DNA of 64,000 bases from Aeromicrobium flavum (GTDB lineage: Bacteria > Actinomycetota > Actinomycetes > Propionibacteriales > Nocardioidaceae). The notes beneath the pieces are model-generated. The model was not told the DNA's origin. It did not search any database and was given only the letters and a program-made list of their open reading frames with translations. Shown piece by piece: positions 51,820 through 55,575 of the stretch; within the stretch, counting starts at the first letter, position 1, and each line of letters starts with the position of its first letter. The translations under genes were made by a program, and so were the position numbers. The DNA lies in NCBI RefSeq assembly GCF_007992115.1, contig NZ_BJZQ01000005.1, forward strand, positions 124,001-188,000. Reading direction: 5' to 3'.

Positions 51820-52422
51820 ATGTCCGTGCCGCCAGGGCTCCGCCCCGATGAGACACGCGCCGTGCATGCGGTCCTGGCCGACCCGGTCTGTCGGACCGTG
51901 CTGGAGCGGATGCCGCGCCTCGGGCTCGCGGAGTGGTGGCTCACCGCCGGTGCCGTCTTCCAGAACATCTGGAACGCGCAGGAGGGCAGGCCCGCCGGAT
52001 TCGGGATCAAGGACTACGACGTCTTCTACTTCGATGCGGCCGACCTCGGGTGGGACGCCGAGGACGAGGTCATCCGGGCCGTGGCGGACCTCTTCTCCGA
52101 CGTGGACGCGCACGTCGAGATCCGCAACGAGGCCCGGGTGCACCTCTGGTACGAGGAGAGATTCGGCGTTCCGGCCGATCCGTTCACCAGTGCCACCGAT
52201 GCGATCGACGCCTTCGCCAGCACCACCTGCTGCGTCGGCATGACGACGGCGCCCGACGGGAGAATCAGCGTCCACGCACCATACGGGCTCCAGGACGTCT
52301 TCGACCGTGTCATGCGCCCGAATCCAAGGCTGGCGCCGCGCGAGGTCTACGAGGCTAAGGTCGCGCAGTACCGCGAGCGGTGGCCCTCCGTCACGGCCGA
52401 GCCGTGGCCGGACGACATCTGA
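51820..52422 (+). CDS. Nucleotidyltransferase-like family (NTP_transf_6) protein
   Basis: This 200-aa protein resembles the NTP_transf_6 (DUF925) family: LAEWWLTAGAVFQNIWN, then GIKDYDVFYFDAADLGWDAED, with the acidic pair of the putative active site, and VEIRNEARVHLWYEERFG. The transferred nucleotide and acceptor are unknown. The ATG at 51820 follows GAGGGGG; a TAGGCT hexamer at 51787-51792 could be its -10, giving a ~22-nt leader. It is divergent from the oxidoreductase gene. Confidence 0.85.
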   Translation: MSVPPGLRPDETRAVHAVLADPVCRTVLERMPRLGLAEWWLTAGAVFQNIWNAQEGRPAGFGIKDYDVFYFDAADLGWDAEDEVIRAVADLFSDVDAHVEIRNEARVHLWYEERFGVPADPFTSATDAIDAFASTTCCVGMTTAPDGRISVHAPYGLQDVFDRVMRPNPRLAPREVYEAKVAQYRERWPSVTAEPWPDDI

Positions 52423-52478
52423 CGCCGGCGACTGGCTGGGCTGACGTTTCTGTCGGTGGCGCCCACTGGGTTGGGTGC

Positions 52479-53723
52479 ATGGGTTGGAGTCAGGCGGCGG
52501 TCACGGGCGACGCGGTGCGTCGCGCCCGGGCGATGGCCGAGTTCGAGGAGTGGGACTTCGTGGTGTCCCAGCACGTCCGCCGGGTGGCCGAGATCGACCG
52601 CACCGATGACATCGTGCTGTCCAAGGAGCTCGCCCGGCGTGAGGTGACGCTGGAGCTGGCGCAGGCCCTGCGGGTCACCGAGCACCAGGTCTGGTCGATG
52701 GTCCGTGAGGCCCAGATCGTGCGGGAACGGACGCCGGCGGTGTGGGAGGCGTTCCGCGCCGGCGACCTCGACGCGGTCCGGGTCACCGCGATCGCCGACA
52801 GCGCCGCCCGACTCCAGACCCGCGACTCCTGGCAGAAGCTCGAGCACTCCGCGCCGGAGTACGCCGCGACCCACACCATCGCCGAGCTGCGGGCCTGGCT
52901 GCGGCGACTGCGGGCCCGGCTCGAGCCCGAAGGCGCCGACGCCGAGACCGCCCGCGCCCTCGCCGACCGACGCGTGAACGTCACCCACAACGACGACGGC
53001 ACCTCCTGGCTCAACGCCCTGCTCCCCACCGGGGTCGCGATCGCCGTGGCCGAGCGGCTCCGCAAGGCCGCCAAGGCCCTCCCCTCGGTCGACCCCGAGA
53101 CCGGCGAGACCGACACCCGCACCCGCGAACAGAAGCAGGCCGACCTGCTCGGGCACTGGCTCACCTCCTGCACCGGCACCGAGACCGACATCCGGGCCGA
53201 GATCGCGATCAGCATCGCCGCCACCGACCTCATCGGCCTCACGAACGGCCCCGGCATCACCCGCGACGGCGAACCCGTCACCTCCGCCTGGGTCCGCGAG
53301 CTCGCCGGCTCCGAACACACCCTCTTCCGCAGACTCGTCCTCGACCCCCGCGGCGACATCCTCGACACCACCGTCCTGAACTACCGGCCCACCGAAGCGT
53401 TGAGGAAGGCGCTCCGATGGCGAGACGGCACCTGCCGCGTCGCCGGCTGCCGAGCCCCCGTCCACGACACCGACCTCGACCACGCCAAGCCCTACGACAC
53501 AGGCGGCGAGACCACCGCCTCCAACCTGCGGTGCCTGTGCCGCAAACACCACAACATGAAGTCCCACGACCACCTCGACGACCGTCACCTCGACACCCCG
53601 ATGCGGATCATCGAGCGGTACCTCCCCTGCCCACCCACCGTGGGATTTCTCGACCTCCTCGACCCGAAACGACCCGTCCGAGGGCCTCAACTCCGTGAGA
53701 TACCTCACCCGGCTTCCGTGTAA
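52479..53723 (+). CDS. DUF222 / HNH endonuclease signature protein
   Basis: This 414-aa protein belongs to the actinobacterial DUF222-HNH (13E12 repeat-like) family. The N-terminal DUF222 region is helical (RRARAMAEFEEWDFVVSQHVRRVAEID); the C-terminal HNH motif is GTCRVAGCRAP, then TDLDHAKPYDTGGETTASNL and CLCRKHHNMKSH, with Cys pairs for a structural zinc. Members occur in many copies per genome and are suspected to be mobile or intron-like nucleases, but no mobile boundaries are seen here. The ATG at 52479 has no clear ribosome-binding site. Confidence 0.9.
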   Translation: MGWSQAAVTGDAVRRARAMAEFEEWDFVVSQHVRRVAEIDRTDDIVLSKELARREVTLELAQALRVTEHQVWSMVREAQIVRERTPAVWEAFRAGDLDAVRVTAIADSAARLQTRDSWQKLEHSAPEYAATHTIAELRAWLRRLRARLEPEGADAETARALADRRVNVTHNDDGTSWLNALLPTGVAIAVAERLRKAAKALPSVDPETGETDTRTREQKQADLLGHWLTSCTGTETDIRAEIAISIAATDLIGLTNGPGITRDGEPVTSAWVRELAGSEHTLFRRLVLDPRGDILDTTVLNYRPTEALRKALRWRDGTCRVAGCRAPVHDTDLDHAKPYDTGGETTASNLRCLCRKHHNMKSHDHLDDRHLDTPMRIIERYLPCPPTVGFLDLLDPKRPVRGPQLREIPHPASV

Positions 53724-53807: not shown

Positions 53808-53855
53808 GCTGCGCCACGTACGTTTTTTGACGGCCCACCCGCGGGCCGGTCCGTG

Positions 53856-54013
53856 AGCACGCTGAACCCGTCGAGGCTCACGGGACACTCGAAGCACTTC
53901 ATCGACGGGCCGGGGAAACCAGCATTGCGTCGCGTCATCGCGACTTGGGGCTCACCACCACGCGTGGGGCATACCTTCATTGCCAGTCCGACAGGTCTCT
54001 CCTCGTAGGCGTC
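53856..54013 (+). promoter_or_regulatory. Probable c-di-AMP riboswitch (ydaO-yuaA class)
   Basis: The leader carries the conserved landmarks of the ydaO-yuaA class in order: ACGCTGAACCCG at the start; an arm pair CCCGTCG (53867-53873)/CGACGGG (53903-53909); CCGGGGAAACCA; a variable hairpin GTCGCG-TCAT-CGCGAC (53929-53944); TTGGGGC and GTGGGGCATACC; then CCGACAGGTCTC and CCTCGTAGGCGT. The ACGC at 53859-53862 can pair with GCGT at 54009-54012 to close the element. The ribosome-binding site GAAGGAG follows immediately, so ligand binding could control translation or elongation. In actinobacteria this class commonly precedes cell-wall hydrolase genes, as here. Confidence 0.85.
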
Positions 54014-54026
54014 GAAGGAGATCCCC

Positions 54027-54623
54027 ATGCGACACGTCGCAACCATGCTTGCTGCCTCCGTGGCAGCGTCCGTCCTGTCCCTCGCTGCTCCCGCCCAAGC
54101 GGCGCCCAGCACCGTCACCACCGGTGTGGCCACCACCAGCGTCGCCACCACCAACGCGGCGCCGACCGCCGCCCAGCTGCGCAAGCAGCGCATCATCAAG
54201 AAGAAGGCCGCGATCAAGAAGAAGCGCGCCATCGTCGCCAAGAAGAAGGCGATCAAGAAGAAGCGCGCCATCAAGCGCGGCAAGAAGATCATGCGCGTCG
54301 CCTCGAAGTACCGCGGCACGCCGTACCGCTGGGGCGGCACCAGCCCGTCCGGCTTCGACTGCTCCGGCTACGTCAAGTACGTCGCGAAGAAGTCCGTGAA
54401 GAAGAACATGCCCCGCATCGCCGGCGCCCAGATGAGCAAGGGCAAGAAGATCGCCAAGAGCAAGAAGCGCAAGGGCGACCTGATCGGCTTCTACAACGGC
54501 TCCGGCGTCTACCACATCGGCATCTACGCCGGTGGCGGCAAGATCTGGCACTCGCCGCGCCCGGGCAAGTCGGTCGAGAAGGTCAAGATCTGGACCAGCG
54601 GCTACAAGGTGCGCCGGATCTGA
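54027..54623 (+). CDS. Secreted NlpC/P60 (C40) peptidase
   Basis: This 198-aa secreted cysteine peptidase should cleave peptidoglycan stem peptides. A Sec signal (1-26, ending AQAA-P) precedes a Thr/Ala/Val stretch, then a strikingly Lys/Arg-rich segment (~52-90) and the NlpC/P60 domain with Cys112 (FDCSGYV), His163 (YHIGIY) and His175 (IWHSP). The Lys-rich part is encoded by a 21-bp exact direct repeat (54213-54233 and 54252-54272). The basic region may bind anionic wall polymers. Expression is predicted to respond to c-di-AMP through the leader at 53856-54013. A strong hairpin terminator follows. Confidence 0.94.
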   Translation: MRHVATMLAASVAASVLSLAAPAQAAPSTVTTGVATTSVATTNAAPTAAQLRKQRIIKKKAAIKKKRAIVAKKKAIKKKRAIKRGKKIMRVASKYRGTPYRWGGTSPSGFDCSGYVKYVAKKSVKKNMPRIAGAQMSKGKKIAKSKKRKGDLIGFYNGSGVYHIGIYAGGGKIWHSPRPGKSVEKVKIWTSGYKVRRI

Positions 54624-54639
54624 TCCACGCACCCCTGTT

Positions 54640-54676
54640 CCACGGGCGAGTCACCTCACGGGTGACTCGCCCGTGG
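54640..54676 (+). terminator. Strong hairpin after the NlpC/P60 gene
   Basis: A perfect 16-bp stem (54640-54655 with 54661-54676) and 5-nt loop lie 17 bp after the stop codon. It lacks a T tract, as is common for high-GC actinobacterial terminators. Confidence 0.75.
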
Positions 54677-54723: not shown

Positions 54724-55149
54724 ATGACGAGCGCCCGCGACAGCGGTGTCATCGAGGCACCCTTCCCCTCGCAGACCTCCGACCTCGTGGCCGCGGGTCT
54801 CGGCGTGGTCGTGACCGCCGCGTTCGTCCTGTGGCTGATCTGGTGCGGCGTCAGGGACCTCCGTGCCGGCGAACGGTCCGGGCGGTACGTCCTCGCCTTC
54901 GCCCTGTTCTCGTTCCTCCTCCTGGGCAGCCTCATCGACAAGGACCTCGTCGAGCCCGCCCAGGTCGACCAGCTGGAGGAGGGGCTGGCGAAGGAGCGGA
55001 TCGAGCTGTTCGGCGACGACCACCCCGACCACGACGGGGGCCGGTACCCCGGCACCCACCGCGGACGTCCCGCGCTGGTGACGATCGAGCGCGACGGCAG
55101 CACCTACCGCTGGTCGGTCGAGTACGGTCTCGCGGATCGGACCGAGTAG
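54724..55149 (+). CDS. Hypothetical membrane protein
   Basis: I do not recognise this 141-aa protein. It has two membrane helices (DLVAAGLGVVVTAAFVLWLIW and YVLAFALFSFLLLGSLI) followed by a soluble tail with an acidic His/Asp stretch (FGDDHPDHDGG) and a beta-rich end (ALVTIERDGSTYRWSVEYG). The His/Asp cluster could bind metal. The start ATG at 54724 is the first after the NlpC terminator; CAGACT seven bases upstream is a weak -10 candidate. It appears monocistronic. Confidence 0.72.
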   Translation: MTSARDSGVIEAPFPSQTSDLVAAGLGVVVTAAFVLWLIWCGVRDLRAGERSGRYVLAFALFSFLLLGSLIDKDLVEPAQVDQLEEGLAKERIELFGDDHPDHDGGRYPGTHRGRPALVTIERDGSTYRWSVEYGLADRTE

Positions 55150-55226: not shown

Positions 55227-55520
55227 ATGGCTGCGACGAGGAAGAGCCAGGGCGGCCGAGACGGCGTGCGCATGACCGACGACAGCCTGCGCGTACGCCA
55301 GCTCACGCACTACCAGTTCAGCTGGACGGCGGGCGAAGGCGGAGAGAACGGCATCTGGACCCTCCAGCTCGTGCTCGACGAGGGCGCGTGGGAAGAGGTC
55401 CTCACGGTGAGCGCCGAGGATGCCGACAACCTGCAGGACGTCCTCACGAACACCAGCAAGGTGTTCTACGACATCGACCGTCGCGTGTTGATGTTCGGCG
55501 TCACCAAGGCGGGCGACTGA
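55227..55520 (+). CDS. Hypothetical small protein
   Basis: This 97-aa protein is unrecognised. It is soluble with a basic N-terminus (AATRKSQGGRDGVRM) and a beta-rich body (QLTHYQFSWTAGEGGENGIWTLQLV, VLTVSAEDADNLQDVL, VFYDIDRRVLMFGV), which looks like a small single-domain binding protein. GGAGGAG precedes the ATG with good spacing, and a bidirectional terminator follows, so it is probably a real monocistronic gene. Confidence 0.75.
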   Translation: MAATRKSQGGRDGVRMTDDSLRVRQLTHYQFSWTAGEGGENGIWTLQLVLDEGAWEEVLTVSAEDADNLQDVLTNTSKVFYDIDRRVLMFGVTKAGD

Positions 55521-55545: not shown

Positions 55546-55575
55546 GGGCGAGCCATCCGCGAGGGTGGCTCGCCC
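55546..55575. terminator. Bidirectional terminator hairpin
   Basis: A 13-bp stem with one G-T pair (55546-55558 with 55563-55575), loop GCGA, separates the convergent genes at 55520 and 55576 and directly abuts the stop codon of the latter. TCATTCTT follows on the plus strand. Confidence 0.75.

Follow-up and report, generated by a model that had tools for sequence, protein, structure and literature searches.

The 5' leader of a secreted NlpC/P60 peptidase gene in Aeromicrobium flavum, situated within the 64,000-nucleotide stretch of DNA analysed here (the "window"), is probably a divergent member of the c-di-AMP (ydaO/yuaA) riboswitches and would act by repressing translation. Comparison of related leaders supports its homology to the class, its conserved helices and, in the class, a covariation between one aptamer loop and the 3' tail. 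The identity of the ligand, the dependence on it and the OFF direction are presumed. The riboswitch class, the kind of target gene and the translational mode are already known. New are a subfamily that falls under the Rfam cut-off, the association of this subfamily with long Lys/Arg-rich linkers, and relatives that lack separate P6 and P7 helices.

The helices P0 to P7 and the pseudoknot were written by hand on an alignment of seven leaders (group B, the window clade), guided by the sequences and by the Rfam family RF00379. The features of the window element are as follows.

53851 to 53858, plus strand: P0 5' strand, eight pairs with 53876 to 53883 in the P2 loop; two double-sided changes in the clade
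53876 to 53883, plus strand: P0 3' strand, from the clade alignment
53859 to 53862, plus strand: P1 5' strand ACGC, paired in 7 of 7 sequences; the RF00379 alignment starts at 53860
54009 to 54012, plus strand: P1 3' strand GCGT, from the clade alignment
53867 to 53873, plus strand: P2 5' strand, pairs with 53903 to 53909; two double-sided changes
53903 to 53909, plus strand: P2 3' strand, from the clade alignment
53911 to 53915, plus strand: P3 5' strand CGGGG, pairs with 54001 to 54005; two one-sided variants, neither of which breaks a pair
54001 to 54005, plus strand: P3 3' strand CCTCG, from the clade alignment
53920 to 53947, plus strand: P4, with a hairpin insertion (53929 to 53934 with 53939 to 53944) relative to RF00379
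53948 to 53989, plus strand: P5 (53948 to 53950 with 53987 to 53989), enclosing P6 and P7
53955 to 53967, plus strand: P6 hairpin, invariant in the clade
53968 to 53984, plus strand: P7 hairpin, invariant in the clade
53974 to 53978, plus strand: P7 loop CCUUC, putative pseudoknot 5' strand (anti-Shine-Dalgarno); covaries in the class, invariant in the clade
54014 to 54020, plus strand: Shine-Dalgarno sequence GAAGGAG, of which GAAGG (54014 to 54018) is the putative pseudoknot 3' strand
54027 to 54623, plus strand: secreted NlpC/P60 peptidase of 198 residues with a Lys/Arg-rich linker (PF00877)

The first-pass annotation had described a closing P1 pairing of ACGC with GCGT and a ribosome-binding site one base later. 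The sequence positions bear this out: the two strands are present and complementary, and the single base C54013 separates the second of them from GAAGGAG, which is followed by the ATG start codon at 54027. A simple consensus scan of the plus strand between 53600 and 54750 gave no terminator-like site, in agreement with the earlier view that a separate terminator is absent, and an intrinsic terminator was dropped as the expression platform on these grounds. This empty scan and the one-base spacing from P1 to the Shine-Dalgarno sequence make it very unlikely that the c-di-AMP riboswitch works mainly through transcription attenuation. Such a mode would have a precedent in Streptomyces coelicolor rpfA, for which termination is reported in the available part of PMC10117811, and in Corynebacterium glutamicum transcript levels were lower with the riboswitch than without it, irrespective of c-di-AMP (PMC9960051, accessible portion).

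A DUF222 protein with an HNH domain is encoded immediately upstream on the same strand (52380 to 53723, plus). Right after the NlpC stop codon there is a perfect inverted repeat with 16 bases per arm and no T run (54640 to 54676, plus), and a shorter repeat resembling it lies near 55546 to 55575; both were noticed by eye. The small downstream open reading frames at 54726 to 55149 and 55227 to 55520, both on the plus strand, have no Pfam or NCBIfam match at E <= 0.001.

The hand-written structure fits the window clade closely. Standard pairs occupy 99.4% of 336 cells in the seven group B sequences, compared with 35.0-45.2% when the partners are slid by one to three columns. P1 to P7 all pair in the clade, and the class landmarks are thus found in the order in which they had been annotated. 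There are four double-sided pair changes, shared equally between P0 and P2, a number reached by 1 of 500 shuffles; the covariation score of the structure is likewise reached by 1 of 500. Further pair types show no excess in group B (11, compared with 10.9 in shuffles; 431/500). In both of the double-changed P2 pairs it is the window that differs from the other members. Within group B there is no variation in P6, P7 or the pseudoknot, so this group by itself is no evidence for them, and compensatory support within the clade is confined to P0 and P2. P0, formed by the 5' flank and the P2 loop, can be seen by eye in groups A and D (defined below) as well.

The search with RF00379 that had been proposed as a check gave no significant single-sequence match. 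The covariance model aligns to 53860-54018 on the plus strand with 15.1 bits (E 0.47), as compared with a gathering score of 38, and for the window sequence by itself this does not exceed the level of chance. A scan of the window at the Rfam gathering thresholds reported one tRNA and nothing else. Three other families overlap the element far under their cut-offs and were rejected: Scr3920 on the opposite strand (20.4 of 88 bits), speF (15 of 37 bits) and ncS035 (14.2 of 79 bits). Because the 38-bit gathering threshold is a curated cut-off and not a structural feature, what is claimed here is descent from, and resemblance to, the RF00379 class rather than an Rfam call, and on comparative grounds this claim is well supported. 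The assignment to the ydaO/yuaA class thus fails by the single-sequence Rfam score, an outcome that the first-pass annotation itself had named as refuting, and stands by the series of ortholog scores and by the clade model.

The genus sample consisted of 49 genomes including that of the window. RF00379 matches were found in 42 of them under strict filters, with which weak matches may be lost. According to the coordinates, one element in each of 39 genomes (59.8-94.4 bits) precedes another, separate NlpC match, whose open frame has 323-390 residues; the canonical copy in the window genome is at C1:77180-77329 (75.8 bits). A second series is formed by 20 hits directly 5' of orthologs of the window gene. 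These are graded from 50.9 to 15.1 bits, 12 being above the cut-off (40-50.9 bits) and eight below it (15.1-36.5 bits), and the window has the lowest score of all.

The leader alignment has 29 members, 27 derived from loci and two fetched separately; L029-L031, paralogs with frames of about 400 residues, were excluded. A scan of genome contigs gave two loci, and L249, a distant Treponema protein, was left out. Groups were assigned by eye. Group A (L017-L028, L062 and L063) is canonical, group B comprises L002-L008, group C L011-L013, and group D L009, L010, L014 and L016, while L015 is intermediate between group D and the others. At E <= 1 RF00379 is silent on L007, L009, L010, L013, L014, L015 and L016, although their leaders do align.

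A covariance model of the seven group B sequences, the window included (R3), was used at E <= 0.01 to search the family, represented by 197 genomes, scoring no more than 13 candidates in each. It matches at least 65 of the 197, and the 132 genomes without a match say little because of this restriction on candidates. The model gives 81.7-83.2 bits on the group C leaders and also recovers, in other genera, elements that score above the RF00379 cut-off (G126:C134 with 55.6 bits, G058:C29 with 47.0 and G121:C1 with 41.9). Since R3 and RF00379 match at the same places, the homology of the window leader to accepted members of the class is seen from both directions.

The P7 loop CCUUC of the window is complementary to GAAGG at 54014-54018, the Shine-Dalgarno sequence itself, and the window therefore has the pairing between the P7 loop and the 3' tail that is a mark of the class. 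Covariation between loop and tail was analysed in three sets. The wide set comprises 149 elements of the family and the class (49 loci and 100 stretches; L073-L221) among the matches listed, of which 143 could be parsed, L116, L119, L156, L168, L177 and L201 being left out. The 29 leaders form the second set, ten group A members being parsed with a pattern of their own, and the third consists of 39 paralogous elements located by hit coordinates. In the wide set each loop pairs with its own tail at -10.35 kcal/mol, versus -7.90 kcal/mol when permuted (0 of 10000 permutations; 133 distinct), and in the 29 leaders the values are -10.44 and -8.72 (0/10000; 21 distinct). For the paralogs they are -8.87 and -8.19 (38/10000; 33 distinct).

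The signal holds when the wide set is thinned to 97 of the 143 elements (z -11.8, 0/10000), and two control stretches compared with the tail in the same 97 elements give none (8539/10000 and 4119/10000). Within the genus, thinning weakens it, to 160/10000 with 11 clusters and 1052/10000 with eight. Matching variants can also be seen by eye: L027 has a loop shorter by one U (CCUC) and a GAGG Shine-Dalgarno sequence, L024 and L026 have CCUUCA with UGAAGG, and most group A members have CCUUCG with CGAAGG. The pairing seems to be a feature of the class, because the P7 loop UCCUUCG and the tail CGAAGGA of the Thermoanaerobacter tengcongensis element, in the available part of PMC5393176, show it too; that pairing is our own reading of the letters.

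The position of the pseudoknot relative to the start site was determined with a script on the matches listed. The pseudoknot strand overlaps the Shine-Dalgarno sequence by at least 3 bases in 28 of the 29 leaders, in 49 of the 143 wide-set elements and in 0 of the 39 paralogs. In the rest of the wide set, it lies at most 6 bases 5' of the Shine-Dalgarno sequence or touches it in 71 elements and is apart from it in four; 19 have no start or Shine-Dalgarno sequence called. On the window the script preferred a higher-scoring helix, TGGGG:CCCCA, and classed it as "apart", and in L009, L010 and L027 the helix it chose lies outside the apical loop. The result for the paralogs is rough, as the end of P1 was placed too far 3' in several of them. 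Direct translational control, which had been suggested from the tight spacing, has more direct support than was then argued, by the identity of the pseudoknot strand with the Shine-Dalgarno sequence and by the loop-tail covariation in the class.

A free fold that disregards pseudoknots is predicted to pair 54014-54018 with the P7 loop strand 53974-53978 at a probability of 0.98-0.99. If the nested aptamer helices are imposed, the Shine-Dalgarno sequence is predicted to be 0.72 unpaired. The pairing in the free fold, together with the position of the window at the bottom of the ortholog scores, would suit a relic aptamer that binds no ligand and whose structure just fixes a constant low level of translation. 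Such a relic seems quite unlikely, as the pairing is kept across seven species and P0 and P2 show compensatory changes.

An opposite arrangement would be an ON switch: without ligand the P3 3' strand (UCUCC) would sequester the Shine-Dalgarno sequence, and formation of P3 would free it. Six potential pairs in the window, one double-sided change in G004 and weak hints at 720/10000 (eight genus clusters) and 559/10000 (64 clusters of all elements) point this way. However, the pairing value is reached by 63 of 500 shuffles, and the P3 3' strand and the tail show no covariation in the 97 thinned wide-set elements (8427/10000), for which reason this strand was dropped as an expression platform. The class is moreover described as OFF in the accessible portion of PMC9960051, and an ON switch is extremely improbable.

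According to the translational OFF reading, which we prefer, a high level of c-di-AMP would cause the aptamer to fold and P1 to close. Closure of P1 would place the P7 loop CCUUC onto the GAAGG immediately 3' of it, and, this being the Shine-Dalgarno sequence of the peptidase, the 30S subunit would be kept off and translation would stop. At low c-di-AMP the pseudoknot would open and the wall hydrolase would be made. Several points count against this reading: the score of 15.1 bits, the invariance of P6, P7 and the pseudoknot in the clade, the weaker test after thinning within the genus, the other helix scored higher by the script, the changed junction letters described below, the Shine-Dalgarno sequence already paired in the free fold, and the transcription termination reported for S. 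coelicolor rpfA (PMC10117811, available part).

The two halves of the window element differ in their resemblance to the RF00379 consensus. The half formed by P1 to P3 is near it. In the half formed by P5 to P7 the junctions depart from it, having CUCAC for UGAAU and AG for GAA, and P6 abuts P7 with no base between them. Because of these junction letters the binding of c-di-AMP may have changed. It is conceivable, if rather unlikely, that the leader is a riboswitch of the same descent with a changed ligand or with just one of the two c-di-AMP sites kept. The group D relatives without separate P6 and P7 would fit this, and the second canonical element in the genome could free that of the window to drift. 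On the other hand, the group A leaders of the same gene are canonical, and the type of target gene is usual for actinobacterial c-di-AMP riboswitches (PMC9960051, as far as accessible).

Group D is found at L009:1266-1410 (plus strand), L010:1948-2092 (minus), L014:1236-1395 (plus) and L016:1248-1407 (plus). These leaders have no separate P6 and P7, only a short loop remaining between the P5 strands, and GACAGUCA comes directly after the P3 5' strand. The remaining loop, (U)CCUC, is complementary to the Shine-Dalgarno sequence GAGG(A), and in L009 GGGCC and GGUCC can make one hairpin. A covariance model of the four leaders with a hand-written structure (R2) matches six of the 197 family genomes, namely the four D loci, G033 (the L015 locus, 68.3 bits) and G107 (29.9 bits, at an RF00379 member that scores 63.7 bits with RF00379). 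An earlier model, R1, with a structure from RNAalifold, was discarded as its fold was unlike the aptamer. Two genomes, G038 (L009 and L062) and G047 (L010 and L063), each have two orthologous NlpC genes, of which one is preceded by a canonical group A leader and the other by a reduced group D leader.

As a tentative and rather unlikely conjecture, the second riboswitch of Aeromicrobium may be drifting off the class, the window clade having remodelled one half of the aptamer and group D having collapsed P5-P7 into one hairpin with a loop that matches the Shine-Dalgarno sequence. If true, this would provide a stepwise set of naturally occurring riboswitches with one site or a new specificity.

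The product of 54027-54623 matches PF00877 (NlpC/P60) with 83.2 bits (cut-off 23, E 1.5e-23). It has DCSG at residue 111, HIGIY at 163 and WHS at 174, which we take to be the catalytic motifs, so that the annotated NlpC/P60 peptidase is confirmed with its Cys and His motifs. Its linker has 24 Lys or Arg within residues 51-96. The linker had been called unusual; it is indeed basic, but it is common to the seven members of the clade and not peculiar to this genome. By our own cut, the linkers of all seven group B orthologs have 43-93 residues with 32-37% Lys/Arg, whereas the 17 of 22 other proteins that could be cut have linkers of 9-22 residues with 9-33%; L011, L012, L013, L025 and L027 lack the DCSG string and their linkers were left out. 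The long basic linker and the B-type RNA accordingly co-occur in this sample.

A diadenylate cyclase gene, which the first-pass annotation had advised looking for, is present in the genome (PF02457, 90.8 bits). The DHH family PF01368 has no match in the window genome, as against a match in 13 of 14 control genomes. A PF01663 protein is encoded at C13:79753-80649 and could be a c-di-AMP phosphodiesterase, a prediction that goes with the Streptomyces phosphodiesterase AtaC, presumably a member of the same family.

The comparative evidence suggests that the pseudoknot of the c-di-AMP aptamer doubles as a ribosome block in many Actinobacteria. The Rfam cut-off misses members of one clade in Aeromicrobium, and the graded leaders offer a natural series on which one could ask how large a part of the two-site aptamer is required. 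In the accessible literature we found no comparative demonstration of the class pseudoknot as a block of the Shine-Dalgarno sequence, although one may exist beyond it, and the genus name was absent among the matches listed when the class literature was searched with Aeromicrobium. The mechanism itself has been suggested for C. glutamicum (PMC9960051), and a review names the class among those that use it (PMC10907184), going by the available parts of both.

The closest known system is likened by its description in the accessible part of PMC9960051. The C. glutamicum nlpC gene (cg2402) also has a ydaO-type element 5' of an NlpC/P60 wall peptidase, c-di-AMP lowers its translation in a translational OFF mode with the canonical terminator absent, and its authors suggest a CTCC-GGAG pseudoknot with the ribosome-binding site. 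Unlike the window element, which scores under the Rfam cut-off, it was found by earlier annotation and belongs to an operon of seven genes. S. coelicolor rpfA is another actinobacterial ydaO-type element 5' of a secreted wall hydrolase, but transcription termination is reported for it (PMC10117811, available portion). In the T. tengcongensis ydaO crystal construct the P7 loop fits the tail right after P1 (PMC5393176, in part). That element comes from another phylum, and compared with it the window has changed P5-P7 junctions, a P4 hairpin insertion and a long P2 with P0. The preQ1-III and cobalamin riboswitches are unrelated in RNA and ligand, yet their aptamer loops similarly dock downstream at or near the ribosome-binding site, and the accessible text of the review (PMC10907184), which cites Nelson 2013, groups ydaO with such riboswitches.
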